A DNA stretch of 35,017 nucleotides, taken from the IMG/VR virus record IMGVR_UViG_3300035034_003247, positions 1-35,017 of that record, one strand, 5' to 3'. The position numbers and the translations under genes are program-made. Under the pieces are notes generated by a model. It saw only the letters and a list, made by a program, of their open reading frames with translations. It was not told the DNA's origin and ran no database searches. The stretch is from a virus. Positions within the stretch are counted from its first letter, which is position 1; each line of letters begins with the position of its first letter. Shown here in pieces: positions 28,036 to 34,198 of this stretch.

Positions 28036-29637
28036 CTAGGTGGAGGGGTTGCCGTTCTCGGTCTGCTGCTTCGGCTCGCCGTTGTCGGGGCTGTCGCCAC
28101 CCCCGACGGGCCTGCCGCCCTGCCCGCCGCTCACCGCTGGCGCGGAACCGTGCGGAACGATCGTCTGGAAGGTGTCGTCGTAGATCTCCTCCTCGAGCCG
28201 GCGGCGCGCGGCCTCCACGGACTGGCTGAGCCCGAACTGCTCGAGGATGGACTCGCGGGAGATCTCCTTGGCCGACCGCAGCGCGAGGAGCGCCTGAATC
28301 GTCGGCTGGTCAGTGTCGAGCGCGATCTGGTTCGGCGTGAACGCGAGGCGCTGCTCCTCGTTGAGGCGCAGACCCTCGTTGCGCGGGTGCTCGCGCACGT
28401 CACGCATCACGCGCTCGAGCTCGCGGGCCATCATGTGGCGCTTGTTCTGGAGGCCGCGACCGAGCGAGTGCGAGAGCGTCTGGTTCGTCTCGTTGCGCTG
28501 CCCCTTGCTGGAGAACGTCAGCGTGCCGAGCTGCCGTGCGAGGAGGCGCGTGTCGATGGTGTCGTAGCGATCGCCCCGGAGCACGAAGTCCGTCTTCGGC
28601 GCGATGATGTCGACGCTGAGTCGGTGGTCGCTGATGATGACCGGGAGCCGCGCCAGGAAGTTGTAGTTGCGGCGCAGCGCGTCGACCTCGTCCTGCTTGC
28701 CCGGCTGGGCATCGGTGCCCTTGCGCAGGAGCAGGATGTAGTTGGCGGCGCCCACGAGCATCGCCCGGTCGGCGTCGATGAGCTGCTGCTTGAGGTCGAG
28801 CAGCTTGAAGATCGACCTCATGCGCAGGTCGGGGAAGCGCTCGTAGTCCGGGCGGGTGAGCGTGAACCGCCACACCGAACTGGGGTTGAGCACGAAGATC
28901 CGGTCCGGGTTCACGCCCATCGTCGCGAACGAGGCGCGGTCCGCCATCGACGGCACGTACTTCTCGGTGAAGAACTGCGTCATCAGCGGGTCGTCGTAGG
29001 TCCCGTCCTTGACGGCGTCCCAGCGCGTCCACTCGCTCTCGTCAGCCATCCAGCCCAGCAGGTCGGGCCCGAACGGGTTGGGCGACAGCGGGATGATCTT
29101 GGTCGGGTCCAGCGTGCGGATCTCGATGGGGCACCAGACGCGGTAGGTCTTGCGCCGCGGGGCGCCGCTCGAGGTCACGCCGCGCACGCGGTAGTCGCGC
29201 CAGCCCCACATGGAGCCCGCGTAGTACTGCGAGTAGGCGTAGACGTCGCGCCACATCTTGCGCACGACCTCGTCGAGGTTCAGGTCCCGGTTGATCTGGT
29301 TGAACAGGTCGCTCTGGTCGTGGTCCTCGCTCTGCCACCGAAGGCCCTGGAACGCGAACGCCTCAGTGATCTCGGCGACGCCGCCCACGATGTCGTCGTG
29401 CAAGGCGGCCCGCGCCGAGCGCATCTGGTCGTACGGGTTGTCGCTGGGGGTGAAGGTGGTGCGGTCGAACATCGACGTGCTCGGGCGGCTGCGCGTCCGG
29501 TCGACCCACGACGAGAGCTCACGCGCGACGCGCATCAGCTCGCGGTCGCCAGCGATGGTGTTCTCGTCCAGTCCACTGACGTTGATCAGATCCAGGCTGG
29601 AGCCCGGCACGTCAACGATCCTTCCGCCCTCACGCAT
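28036..29637 (-). CDS. Portal protein
   Basis: A 533-residue portal, which forms the dodecameric ring for DNA passage at one capsid vertex. Features: N-terminal region with TTFTPSDNPYDQMRSARAAL; a wing-like helical part with WRDVYAYSQYYAGSMWGWRD; mid-region LTRPDYERFPDLRMRSIFKL; the long crown/stem-like helices near 320-480; and a Gly/Pro/Asn-rich C-terminus (GGQGGRPVGGGDSPDNGEP). ATG at 29637 was chosen because AGAGG stands 8 bases upstream; a GTG at 29646 overlapping the previous stop (GTGA) is possible. Position after the terminase and before the protease agrees. Confidence 0.88.
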   Translation of the reverse strand: MREGGRIVDVPGSSLDLINVSGLDENTIAGDRELMRVARELSSWVDRTRSRPSTSMFDRTTFTPSDNPYDQMRSARAALHDDIVGGVAEITEAFAFQGLRWQSEDHDQSDLFNQINRDLNLDEVVRKMWRDVYAYSQYYAGSMWGWRDYRVRGVTSSGAPRRKTYRVWCPIEIRTLDPTKIIPLSPNPFGPDLLGWMADESEWTRWDAVKDGTYDDPLMTQFFTEKYVPSMADRASFATMGVNPDRIFVLNPSSVWRFTLTRPDYERFPDLRMRSIFKLLDLKQQLIDADRAMLVGAANYILLLRKGTDAQPGKQDEVDALRRNYNFLARLPVIISDHRLSVDIIAPKTDFVLRGDRYDTIDTRLLARQLGTLTFSSKGQRNETNQTLSHSLGRGLQNKRHMMARELERVMRDVREHPRNEGLRLNEEQRLAFTPNQIALDTDQPTIQALLALRSAKEISRESILEQFGLSQSVEAARRRLEEEIYDDTFQTIVPHGSAPAVSGGQGGRPVGGGDSPDNGEPKQQTENGNPST

Positions 29638-29642
29638 CTGGT

Positions 29643-30032
29643 TCACCTCTCGAGGCTGATGTCCTGCCGGCGGATCTCGACGATCCGGCTGGCGAGCTTG
29701 TGCTGTCTGTCGATCTCGTTGAGCAGCGGCACGACCTGCTGGGTGCGGATCTGCCGGTACGAACGGTCCTTGGTCTCGGCCCGGTGGAGGTGGATGTAGA
29801 GCTCGGTGAGCCTGGCGCTGAGCCCTGCGCACATCCGCATCGACTCGTCGGGCTCCATCTGCCACAGAACCCGTAGCGCCCGGGAGATGTAGTCGATCTC
29901 GTCCTCGACCTCCGCCCTGGTGCCGATCGCCCTGGCCGAGAGTCCAGCCACGACGTCCGGGACGAGATCTCCGAGGAAGCCACCCTCCTTCGTTCCTTCC
30001 ACCGTGTAGGTCTTGCCATCAGAGGATGCCAT
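29643..30032 (-). CDS. Hypothetical protein between terminase and portal, 129 aa
   Basis: ATG at 30032, GGGAG 6 bases upstream; the TTG two codons earlier would overlap that ribosome site. Mostly helical and charged (EVEDEIDYISRALRVLWQME; AETKDRSYRQIRTQQVVPLL; ASRIVEIRRQDISLER). No cysteine cluster, no membrane segment, no recognised family. It may assist packaging or portal assembly, as small genes in this slot sometimes do. The upstream ribosome site is shared with a dispersed-motif copy. Confidence 0.7.
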   Translation of the reverse strand: MASSDGKTYTVEGTKEGGFLGDLVPDVVAGLSARAIGTRAEVEDEIDYISRALRVLWQMEPDESMRMCAGLSARLTELYIHLHRAETKDRSYRQIRTQQVVPLLNEIDRQHKLASRIVEIRRQDISLER

Positions 30033-30175: not shown

Positions 30176-32845
30176 TCAGTAGCCGCCCACGAACTGGTCG
30201 ATCACGCTGGTGACCTTCTCCTCGCGGTCGCGGGCCTCGTAGACCTGCGGCAGTGTGATGCCCGCGACGAGCAGCTTCGCGGCGTCCAGCGTGTGGAGGC
30301 CGCCCTGCGAGTAGGACCGGCGCCCCTTGCCGTACGGGTCGCCGGACGTCTTCTCGATGCGGTAGGTCTGCCCCTGGAACTCACCGATGAGCTCGCGGTC
30401 GAACGGGATCCGGATGCGCTTGCGGTCGACGAAGTCGTTGCGCAAAACGTCCGTTGCGTGCTCGACGAAGCGACGCTCGATGACCAGGTCGGCCTGCGTC
30501 TCCTTGCCCTCAAGCTCGCGGTCCTCGAAGTCGACGGGGACCTTCTCGTCGAAGGTCCAGCCCCACAGCTTCTCCTCGCCGTGCTCACGGACGAGGGACT
30601 GGTAGATCGGGAAGCCGATGCCGCCGCGGTCGATCGAGAACCTCTTGAGCTTCCCGTAGCGCTCGAAGAGCTCGCGCACGATGGCGCGCTGTAGGTCCTC
30701 CTCGATCCGCTCCAGCGTCACGCGGAGCAGCAGGTCGATGCCGCCATCCTTGCGCTGGCCGGCGATGAGGATCTCGCTCGGGTGGTTCGTCAAGCCGACG
30801 TCCATGCCGCCGAAGTAGGCGCCGTAGGAGGCCGCCTTGGTGCCCGCCCCCCAGCCGCGGTGCGTTCCCGGGATCCCGTCGAGGGTCTGGGAGACCAGCG
30901 CGAGCTTCGCAGCCTCGTCGCCGGCGTCCTCCAGCATCTCGGCGTTGATCCGCATGTGCTTGTAGACGTCGACGTTGTACTCGGACCCCTGGTCCTGGTC
31001 CACGCAGTCCATGAGGCGCGCGAGGACGAAGACGGCGTTCGTGAGGTCGCCGTGCTCGCCGTAGATGTTGCGCTTGTAGTCCGGGTTCTGGCGGCTGGAG
31101 CCGTACTGCTGGATCTTCTCCTCGCGCTCCTCCGGGGACCACGAGGGGCGGTTCATGCCCATGAGCTGGTGCACGGTCCACTGGCTGTCCGGGCGGCTGA
31201 TCTTGTAGAACTCGTCGCGCACACCGCGGGCCACGCCGTGGCAGAGGAACATCGAGCCCTCACTCCAGCGGTTGCGGGCCTCGATGATCTCGGTCCAGCC
31301 GGCGACGGGGTAGTCCTGCGCTTCGTCCAGCTCGATGATGAGCGAGTGCATACCCTTCACGCCCTTGCCGTCACGGCCCGGGAGGCGGCTGATGATCACG
31401 GCGCCGTTGGCGAAGCGAGCGGTCCAGTGGGGCTGACGCTTGATCCCCTGCCCCTTCTTGCGGGAGACCATCTCGCGCCCGAGACGCACCGAGAGGATCC
31501 GCTGCTCGACCTTGTCGGTGATCGGCTGGAGGTGGTTCAGCTCCGGCGCCGTCAGCAGCATCTCGCGACCCGGGTAGTTGAACGGGAAGGCGAAGGCGCG
31601 CATCTGGATGCGCTGGGTCTTGCCCACCGCTCGTCCGCAGGAGTCGGCCTGCATGGAGTCCTCGCACGAGAACCACGGCCACTGGTAGTCCCACAGGCGA
31701 TAGATCCCGTCCTCGCGCTCCTCGTCCACCCAGCAGTTGTGCACGAGCACACCGTTGGCGACGAACGAGTGATCCTCCTCGACGCCGATGTCGTAGACCC
31801 GGCGCATCCCGACTTCCTCATACCCCTTGAGTGGCGACCACTGCACCCCCTCCTCGAAGGTCGACAGGCCCCCACTGGTCGCCATCGTGAGATACCAGAT
31901 GTCAGCAGCCTCGACGGTCGTCTCGAACTTCTCCCTCTGGCCACCCCGCTCGAAAGTGGTGGACACGCTCCACCCGATCGTCGCAGCAAGCACCCGCAGG
32001 TCACAGGCGAGTCGCTCCGAGACCGTGCTTGCCTCCCAGCGACCACCACCGTCGGGGGAGTAGCCGTCCCCCGACAGGTAGCCGTCCATCAACGCGACCC
32101 TCAGGTTCTCCTTGCTGCTCAACCACGTCGGCGTCAGGCTCTTGTTCTGGGCGCCCCCCTGTGGAAGCCAATCGAACCAGGTCTTACTGCTGATGCCCAC
32201 GCTGACGCACTCGTCGCTCTGTGTTCCCGAGACCCAGAACGGCCCCACCCCGGCGTCGCTCATCCGACGCTCGAACTCGTCCAGATCGCGCGTTCGCACA
32301 GCCCAGGAGACGGAATATCCGGCGCGGTGGTGGTGGTACTTGCTGCCATCCGCGATCCAGCGGCCGTACAACCACGCTTCAGCCTCCAAGCACGTCACCT
32401 GATCGCCAACAACCTCGCTCGGCGTCCCGTAACGGGCATTGCGGATGCGCCCTCGGCTGCCGTACTCCGTCGCGTCGACGCGCGTCCACTCCGGTGATTC
32501 GAGGAACACCAGACGATGTCCCTCGACAGACTTGAGGCCCTGCCGAGCAGCGCGCGACCAGAGCTGGTGGTCCGGCGTGAGCACGAGCGAGGCGAGACCG
32601 ACGCCACGCAGCTCCACCACCGGCTTGACGCCCATGTCGGTGACATGCTGCACCGCGCGCCAGCGCCCCCTGTGCGTCAGCACCTCGTCCCCGACCGTCA
32701 CGTCCTCGATCGGCACGTGACCACGTCGAGTCAGCACCATTGACCCCTCGGCGATGCAGAACTCGGCGAGGTCGATGCCGCTCGGGTCGTCGAGGATCGC
32801 AGCGAGGTAGAGCTCCTCCTCGTCCAGCCCCGTCAGCGCGACCAT
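30176..32845 (-). CDS. terL: Terminase large subunit, intein-containing precursor
   Basis: The packaging motor, made as an 889-residue precursor and reduced to 548 residues after removal of a 341-residue intein. ATG at 32845 (TGATG overlap with the preceding stop, GAGGGGG 7 bases upstream) is preferred to the start at 32872 inside the previous gene. In the spliced protein: an adenine-binding region LWDYQWPWF just before Walker A GRAVGKT (about 63-69), Walker B LIIELDEAQD with Asp166/Glu167, then a nuclease domain with FGGMDVG, FSIDRGGIG and LHTLDAAKLL carrying the acidic residues of the RNase-H-like fold. The intein breaks the N-terminal region about 32 residues before Walker A, so unspliced protein should be inactive. 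Confidence 0.95.
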   Translation of the reverse strand: MVALTGLDEEELYLAAILDDPSGIDLAEFCIAEGSMVLTRRGHVPIEDVTVGDEVLTHRGRWRAVQHVTDMGVKPVVELRGVGLASLVLTPDHQLWSRAARQGLKSVEGHRLVFLESPEWTRVDATEYGSRGRIRNARYGTPSEVVGDQVTCLEAEAWLYGRWIADGSKYHHHRAGYSVSWAVRTRDLDEFERRMSDAGVGPFWVSGTQSDECVSVGISSKTWFDWLPQGGAQNKSLTPTWLSSKENLRVALMDGYLSGDGYSPDGGGRWEASTVSERLACDLRVLAATIGWSVSTTFERGGQREKFETTVEAADIWYLTMATSGGLSTFEEGVQWSPLKGYEEVGMRRVYDIGVEEDHSFVANGVLVHNCWVDEEREDGIYRLWDYQWPWFSCEDSMQADSCGRAVGKTQRIQMRAFAFPFNYPGREMLLTAPELNHLQPITDKVEQRILSVRLGREMVSRKKGQGIKRQPHWTARFANGAVIISRLPGRDGKGVKGMHSLIIELDEAQDYPVAGWTEIIEARNRWSEGSMFLCHGVARGVRDEFYKISRPDSQWTVHQLMGMNRPSWSPEEREEKIQQYGSSRQNPDYKRNIYGEHGDLTNAVFVLARLMDCVDQDQGSEYNVDVYKHMRINAEMLEDAGDEAAKLALVSQTLDGIPGTHRGWGAGTKAASYGAYFGGMDVGLTNHPSEILIAGQRKDGGIDLLLRVTLERIEEDLQRAIVRELFERYGKLKRFSIDRGGIGFPIYQSLVREHGEEKLWGWTFDEKVPVDFEDRELEGKETQADLVIERRFVEHATDVLRNDFVDRKRIRIPFDRELIGEFQGQTYRIEKTSGDPYGKGRRSYSQGGLHTLDAAKLLVAGITLPQVYEARDREEKVTSVIDQFVGGY
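31736..32758 (-). mobile_element. Intein with LAGLIDADG homing endonuclease
   Basis: In-frame insertion of 341 codons. N-terminal splice block begins CIAEGSMVLTRRG with Cys1 (TGC at 32758-32756); block B LVLTPDHQLW contains the conserved T-x-x-H; the endonuclease blocks are LYGRWIADGSK and LMDGYLSGDGYS, each with its acidic residue; blocks F and G are VYDIGVEEDHSFVANG and VLVHN followed by extein Cys+1 (TGC at 31735-31733). Penultimate His and terminal Asn are present, so both splicing and homing activity look intact. Flanking exteins read ...DLAEF/CWVDEE.... Boundaries are exact from the motifs; activity is inferred. Confidence 0.95.
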
Positions 32846-33066
32846 CAGCCAGCCCCCTCGACTCGTCGCCACCCCTGGTCTTCGCCCCCGTAGATGTCGA
32901 CCATCTGGCGCATGAAGGAGGGCCCTGACGCCACACCTGCCGGCCCGGAGCCGGTGACGATGACCTCGTCATCACGCTGCGTGGCAACGAGCCCGCGGCG
33001 GCGTCCCCACGCCACCGCGAGCTCGGCCCGTGTGTAGCTCTCGCACCTCAGGATCCACTTCATCAC
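32845..33066 (-). CDS. Small hypothetical protein, 73 aa
   Basis: Starts at GTG 33066 (GTGA overlap with the stop of the gene before) or ATG 33063 one codon later; stop shares a base with the terminase ATG. A small basic protein (RAELAVAWGRRRGLVATQRD; PSFMRQMVDIYGGEDQGWRR) without recognised motifs. It is translationally coupled between the two terminase genes and may aid packaging; this is by position only. Confidence 0.7.
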   Translation of the reverse strand: MMKWILRCESYTRAELAVAWGRRRGLVATQRDDEVIVTGSGPAGVASGPSFMRQMVDIYGGEDQGWRRVEGAG

Positions 33067-33710
33067 AGCTCCCTAACCCAGTAACGCTGGTTGTTGAGGC
33101 GGAACTTCTCGTCGATCTCCTCGAACTCGGGGATCGCCTTGGTGCGAATCCAGTCAAGGATCTCGGCCTCGGACTCGAACCCGAGCTTCTCGCGTTCCTC
33201 CTGGTCCGAGCGGTCGTACGCCCCGATGATCGCGGCGAGCTCGTTGAACAGCGAGAGCGCCTTGATCACCTGCGTCTCACGGTGGACGCCGAACATCTTG
33301 GCCCGCTGCTTCAGCTCCGCGAGGTACTTCGCTGGCGAGTCGAGGTTGCGCGTCGCGTCTCGGGACGCCTTGTCGAGCCCCATCGAGGACTTGAGCCGCG
33401 TCAGCTCGGCGGAGTACTCCTTGATCGAGCGACGCAACTTCTCGGCGTCGTCGTCGATGATGAGGCCGCCGTAGTCCTTGCCGCTGACGATCCACTGCGT
33501 CCAGCGGTAGATCATCAGCTCGAGCACCAGCACGCGGTCGAGGTCGGCGTAGTCGGTGTGCTCGGTGAACTGCGTGTTCGAGAGGTAGGTGTCCCGCGCG
33601 CTCTCGAACCAGTCGGCCTCGGCCTGGTTCATCACCTCGAGGTCGGTTCCGGCGACCTGCGACACGGTGGCGCCACTACCGGTGGTGGTGATCGGTGGGA
33701 CTGCACTCAC
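33063..33710 (-). CDS. Putative terminase small subunit, 215 aa
   Basis: GTG at 33710 overlaps the resolvase stop by 4 bases; longer readings upstream overlap the resolvase gene. Helical protein with LDRVLVLELMIYRWTQWIVS, then SAELTRLKSSMGLDKASRDA, a pattern close to the helix-turn-helix and KSSMGLD(K)ASRD segment of P27-like small terminases, and a charged C-terminal half (FESEAEILDWIRTKAIPEFE). One small gene separates it from the large terminase. It would recognise the pac or cos site. Moderate confidence; position is the strongest argument. Confidence 0.65.
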   Translation of the reverse strand: MSAVPPITTTGSGATVSQVAGTDLEVMNQAEADWFESARDTYLSNTQFTEHTDYADLDRVLVLELMIYRWTQWIVSGKDYGGLIIDDDAEKLRRSIKEYSAELTRLKSSMGLDKASRDATRNLDSPAKYLAELKQRAKMFGVHRETQVIKALSLFNELAAIIGAYDRSDQEEREKLGFESEAEILDWIRTKAIPEFEEIDEKFRLNNQRYWVREL

Positions 33711-34198
33711 GAGAGGCCATCCAGTGCCGAGAGGTGGGACTGGGGGAAGGTAGGGGCGTTGGATCGCCCGAGGTGGTTCATGGCCAGGGCCCACAGCAGC
33801 CAGGCGTCAGCCTCGTCGGAGTTGTCGAACGTCCGTTGCGAGCGGCTGGTCGCCGAGCTGATCATCAGCTCCTTGCTCGCGTTGCCCTTGCCGGCGCCGA
33901 ACTTCTTGAGCGTCGAGGGCGGCACGACGACCATCCTCACGCCGGAGTAGTGGGCCGCGAGGCGCAGCACGCCGCCGAGCTCCCCGATCTGGTGGGACTG
34001 GTTGGCGCGGGCGTAGGCGTACCCCTCGAGGTAGACCACGTCGGCGTCGACGATGCGCTCGAGGAACCAGAGCTCGAGCTCGGCGAGACGCTCGACGCCC
34101 TTCTTCTTCGGTCGGACAACGCCCGTTGAACCGTCATCCAGGGCGAACCCGGTGCTCGTCAGGCTGGCGTCGACGGCCAGCAACCGAAGCCGACTCAC
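33707..34198 (-). CDS. RuvC-like Holliday junction resolvase
   Basis: A 163-residue RNase-H-fold resolvase. Acidic motifs: Asp10 in LAVDASLTSTGFAL, Glu58 in VVYLEGYAYARANQS, and Asp128/Asp131 in NSDEADAWLLWALA; the basic PPSTLKKFGAGKGNASKE segment is characteristic of phage RuvC-like enzymes. It cuts branched DNA before or during packaging, and it stands directly upstream of the terminase genes. GTG at 34198 overlaps the preceding stop (GTGA). Confidence 0.9.
   Translation of the reverse strand: MSRLRLLAVDASLTSTGFALDDGSTGVVRPKKKGVERLAELELWFLERIVDADVVYLEGYAYARANQSHQIGELGGVLRLAAHYSGVRMVVVPPSTLKKFGAGKGNASKELMISSATSRSQRTFDNSDEADAWLLWALAMNHLGRSNAPTFPQSHLSALDGLS

Follow-up and report, generated by a model that had tools for sequence, protein, structure and literature searches.

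The stretch of DNA analysed here, referred to as the window, is 35,017 nucleotides long and comes from IMG/VR record IMGVR_UViG_3300035034_003247, a metagenomic contig, of unknown quality, from an uncultured virus. On its minus strand, an open reading frame at 30176-32872 encodes 898 residues from a GTG start or 889 residues from an ATG at 32845 (M10), and a GAGGGGG-like ribosome site precedes this ATG. The frame encodes a protein that, by the modelled fold of a relative, is a large terminase (TerL), interrupted near its N-terminus by an intein. The features of the gene are as follows:

32872, minus strand: alternative in-frame GTG start of the N-extein, adding 9 aa
32759..32845, minus strand: N-extein of TerL, 29 aa from the ATG at 32845, ending in DLAEF; read from the sequence and its translation, and collinear with the N-termini of intein-free relatives
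31736..32758, minus strand: class 1 intein with a LAGLIDADG homing endonuclease, 341 aa, CIAEGSMVLT...NGVLVHN; predicted from profiles, an AlphaFold2 model and Foldseek
32720..32758, minus strand: block A with Cys1 (32756-32758), which is invariant in an alignment of 27 inteins
32558..32587, minus strand: block B, TPDH (Thr61, His64), His64 being invariant in the same alignment
32345..32374, minus strand: LAGLIDADG motif 1, WLYGRWIADG (Asp137), aligned with LLGLWIGDG of PI-SceI
32063..32092, minus strand: LAGLIDADG motif 2, LMDGYLSGDG (Asp231), aligned with LAGLIDSDG of PI-SceI
31736..31798, minus strand: blocks F and G, VYDIGVEEDHSFVANGVLVHN, with the penultimate His and terminal Asn; NCBIfam TIGR01443 (E 3e-10) and the alignment of 27 inteins
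31733..31735, minus strand: Cys+1, the first residue of the C-extein, at the junction VHN/C; Cys or Ser in many empty-site relatives
30176..31735, minus strand: C-extein of TerL, 519 aa and stop, with predicted ATPase and RNase H-like nuclease domains; from the fold of the empty-site relative L020 and a weak Terminase_6C match
31682..31690, minus strand: presumed Q-motif (DYQ) of the adenine-binding region; Gln18 of the C-extein is invariant in 12 relatives
31616..31636, minus strand: Walker A (GRAVGKT); G38 and K39 of the C-extein are invariant
31322..31342, minus strand: Walker B region (around IELDEAQ); E135, L136, D137 and E138 of the C-extein are invariant

Upstream of terL lie two further minus-strand genes. 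One (33707-34198) encodes a RuvC-like Holliday junction resolvase (PHROG 159, E 2e-33). The other (33063-33794) encodes a 243-aa protein that matches no PHROG or Pfam family and is, by its position, a candidate small terminase. Downstream of terL, a 609-aa protein (28036-29865, minus strand), likewise with no PHROG or Pfam match, is by position a candidate portal. Searches revealed neither a tRNA in the window nor a consensus promoter near terL.

The host protein is a divergent large terminase

Family profiles gave little purchase on the exteins. Pfam and NCBIfam returned no TerL family for them, PHROGs gave matches only to intein-bearing proteins or weak matches, and Terminase_6C was matched weakly in 4 of 32 relatives. 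The fold was therefore modelled on an intein-free relative, L020, which has Cys at the +1 position, shares 47% identity with the spliced window TerL and served as its stand-in. Folded with 31 relatives, L020 reached a pLDDT of 86. Its model matched T4 gp17 across both domains (E 7e-15). A structural aligner matched it to the ATPase domains of P74-26 TerL (Z 21.6) and T4 gp17 (Z 21.3), and to the nuclease domain of G20c TerL (Z 17.9 over 181 residues). Because of these matches, we assign the exteins to a large terminase, as the first-pass annotation had done, and to a divergent family of that enzyme. The window TerL has the motifs of a P-loop ATPase (Walker A, Walker B and Q-motif) and a predicted RNase H-like nuclease domain. 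Relatives of this protein were present in only 4 of 50,697 phage records, and scanning the named genomes of bacteria and archaea revealed none.

The insertion site is empty in most relatives and occupied in one

The place of the insertion was established by comparison with dozens of viral-contig relatives that lack the intein, share about 35-52% identity and are contiguous across the junction AEF/(C/S)W. Where the window reads DDPSGIDLAEF/CWVDEEREDGIYRLWDYQW, L020 reads DDPSGIELAEFCWIDEENDDGCFRLWDFQW. The junction AEF/CWVDEE, given in the first-pass annotation, is thus borne out by relatives that align straight across it. The 341 residues are not part of the normal enzyme, as intein-free homologues do without them. 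The +1 Cys is already present in the intein-free L006, L019, L020 and L043, and several relatives have Cys or Ser here. The window junction corresponds to F29/C30 of L020, at the end of an N-terminal helix. Counted downstream from it, the Q-motif is about 15 residues away, the glutamine of that motif 17 and GRAVGKT, at its first glycine, 33; the earlier figure for the last distance was about 32.

One distant relative, L053, from an independent metagenome contig, carries a 356-aa intein that is 37% identical to that of the window and sits at the same junction (AEF/CIGGG...VHN/CWKD). Since the intein-free relatives are collinear and a homologous intein interrupts L053 at the same place, chance can be excluded as the source of the insertion. 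The third-position GC content (GC3) of the intein is 0.84 vs 0.96 for the C-extein, a difference that an acquired element would show. The tree gave no support to the window and L053 inteins as sisters, and holding the two together was not rejected (AU p 0.27 with a reduced set of inteins). It is possible that they arrived at this site independently. With a same-site partner in L053 and empty-site relatives, the site before the Q-motif provides material for a homing test.

Splicing and endonuclease parts of the intein

Within the 898-aa frame, the intein runs from residue 39 (Cys1) to residue 379 (Asn341), so the extent first proposed, 31736-32758 or 341 aa, is exact to the residue. Pfam Hint_2 matched the intein above the cut-off (E 4e-7), and NCBIfam intein_Cterm (TIGR01443) matched its C-terminal end at the E-value listed above. 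Cys1, the block-B His64 and Asn341 are invariant across the 27 related inteins aligned. The Thr B:7 and His B:10 of block B have assigned roles in splicing (PMC4031507). An AlphaFold2 model built on the intein alignment had a pLDDT of 92, and its top Foldseek matches were PI-SceI (1ef0, E 7.6e-18) and TliVMA (7qsu, E 1.3e-17). The intein has Cys1, the block B TxxH, a His-Asn end, Cys+1 and a Hint fold, which are the marks of class 1.

The homing endonuclease has two LAGLIDADG motifs that align with their catalytic counterparts in PI-SceI, so that each catalytic acid, Asp137 and Asp231, is present and matches a PI-SceI position. The splicing blocks, both LAGLIDADG blocks and the Cys1, His-Asn and Cys+1 residues that the first-pass annotation had listed are all there, the former in profiles, the PI-SceI alignment and the fold, the latter in the translation. 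Judged from sequence and model, the endonuclease part and the splicing part both look intact, and the insert is an intact, otherwise ordinary class 1 intein that is predicted to be active.

A probable mobile intein and its alternatives

We are almost certain that the locus holds a mobile class 1 LAGLIDADG intein, lodged in the conserved AEF/C codons of a divergent terL, which would be removed by splicing and spread by homing. The terL gene would be translated as a precursor of 889-898 aa. Because the catalytic residues are intact, and from what is known of the family (PMC4031507), the chemistry is expected to be canonical: Cys1 would form a thioester that Cys+1 attacks, Asn341 would cyclise with the assistance of His340, and the exteins would be ligated. 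The predicted spliced TerL is 548 aa counted from the ATG (M10), the length given earlier. Once excised, the intein would cleave the intein-less terL alleles of co-infecting phages, and repair of the break would leave a copy of it in the cut allele. Splicing, DNA cleavage, homing and movement between sites are thus what we infer for this intein. As the insert adjoins the nucleotide-binding region, it is plausible that the precursor cannot package DNA.

The same adjacency would suit an intein kept by the phage as a regulatory switch, whose splicing, conditional on redox state, DNA damage or stage of infection, would make TerL active only late. Regulation of this sort has been put forward for TerL inteins (PMC5050341; PMC7156551), and the Cys-based class 1 chemistry is in keeping with it. 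The intein is present only sporadically, however, with 71 of 89 distinct relatives lacking any insert of at least 110 aa, and so is dispensable to the motor; the intact endonuclease motifs also fit a selfish element that brings its host no benefit. We therefore consider a switch unlikely. Much less probable still is a degenerate insert that does not splice, leaving a dead gene or a permanent domain in a phage that packages by other means. Non-nucleophilic +1 residues do exist among TerL inteins of this family (L011 and L050), but in the window all catalytic residues are present, no stop interrupts the 898 codons of the frame, the Q-motif, Walker A and Walker B of TerL are intact, and relatives work without the insert. 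That an assembler joined the intein of another gene into terL is scarcely credible even for a metagenomic contig of this kind, as Asn341 is directly followed by a correct +1 Cys and the frame is kept on both sides, and L053, from another metagenome, has the same arrangement.

Inserts across the TerL family

TerL-based scans yielded 89 distinct full-length frames of the window TerL family, 18 of which carry inserts, 24 in total, at the threshold of at least 110 aa. In L020 numbering, the inserts lie near positions 30, 64, 69, 158, 169, 194, 277, 338, 396, 461, 508 and 514. These roughly one dozen positions cover the ATPase and nuclease domains, and several TerL proteins carry two inserts. As read from the sequence, the insert ends resemble those of inteins.

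Several of these proteins merit description of their own. L193 (contig 3300017788_003124) has two related inteins, one in the P-loop (GSR/SVGKS) and one at Walker B (DEA/S), both of them members of the TerL intein clade described below. L011 (2993-3997) and L050 (4373-5401) have otherwise intact inteins with endonuclease at TerL site 158, before Walker B. Classical class 1 splicing requires Cys, Ser or Thr at +1. The +1 residue is Gln in L011 (HN/QHVVN) and Ile in L050 (HN/IHPIW), and intein-free relatives have the same residues there. Neither record yielded a second terL. These inteins may splice like bacterial intein-like domains, or they may be broken.

The inserts of L045, L170 and L197, at a K/T junction of the nuclease domain (TerL position 396), start with MQPVSEPVLT, end with THN/T and lack Cys1; they are possibly class 3-like inteins. 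Two mini-inteins, of about 162 aa at TerL position 514 (L148) and about 132 aa at position 64 (L161), have no room for an endonuclease. Family inserts that start with Ala or Met, or end with TGN, were missed by intein searches and look like separate invasions.

A probable single intein lineage at several sites

In a tree of 38 inteins, the window intein and 11 other TerL inteins, together occupying five sites, formed one clade (96/95; 94% of bootstrap trees). A tighter clade around the window intein held eight inteins from four sites (98/98). Inteins of the same site mostly clustered. L148 and L161 were excluded from this tree; they sat on long branches when a broader tree, built quickly, took in many distant inteins. 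Endonuclease columns alone kept the TerL inteins together with a support of 89. With splicing columns alone, no TerL intein clade was recovered and the clade was not rejected (p 0.28). The signal for the clade thus comes mostly from the endonuclease columns.

Since a single clade unites 12 TerL inteins from five sites, one lineage has apparently moved between sites. On balance, we favor the view that the inteins at these five TerL positions, including the one before the Q-motif, share one ancestor whose descendants spread from site to site. If so, this TerL family is a natural record of site-switching by inteins. The related group of 12 makes it testable, inside one gene, how inteins come to change their sites. 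For an uncultured TerL family with about a dozen intein positions, the spread of one lineage is the most interesting part.

Comparison with known terminase inteins

The nearest described systems by host gene are the TerL inteins of mycobacteriophages. Kelley et al. (2016) defined seven terminase sites, TerL1-a to -e, TerL6-f and Pham3880-g, two of them in the P-loop, two in a helix of unknown function, and one each in Walker B, the C-motif and the end of the ATPase domain (PMC5050341). Several of these inteins splice, and endonuclease activity was tested for BAKA and Bethlehem (PMC5050341). Like the window intein, they bear endonucleases and occupy several sites per protein family of large terminases. 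The mycobacteriophage sites are in the P-loop or beyond it, whereas the window site lies before the Q-motif, and the window junction matches none of the seven. The host proteins also differ, as the window TerL belongs to a divergent family that no Pfam profile matches confidently, and the cultured mycobacteriophage records contained no relative of it.

Outside the mycobacteriophages, the TerL intein of phiCbK begins with Pro at a K/S junction (PMC3556154), and cyanophage Mic1 has two TerL inteins, one in the ATPase and one in the nuclease domain (PMC7156551). Neither phage's inteins are reported before the Q-motif. The crAss-like delta phages also carry TerL inteins, for which no position was found (PMC7886860). 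No report of a terminase intein before the Q-motif or P-loop was found in the open-access full-text literature, and this insertion site appears to be undescribed there.

By intein sequence, the closest relatives from cultured phages are inteins that mycobacteriophages, Doug and Pacc40 among them, carry in a DNA methylase (DNMT); these inteins are 32% identical over the full 341 residues. Their host gene is a methylase, and in trees they fall outside the TerL intein clade. Across the 50,697 phage records, matches to the window intein were mostly in DNA methylases, at most 32% identical, and none was annotated as a terminase. PI-SceI and TliVMA, whose structures are solved, have the fold, splicing motifs and catalytic aspartates in common with the window intein, but they are only about 15-19% identical to it and reside in a V-ATPase subunit. 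That a gene can carry related inteins at more than one site has a precedent in the mycobacteriophages, where the TerL1-c and -e inteins form a clade (PMC5050341).
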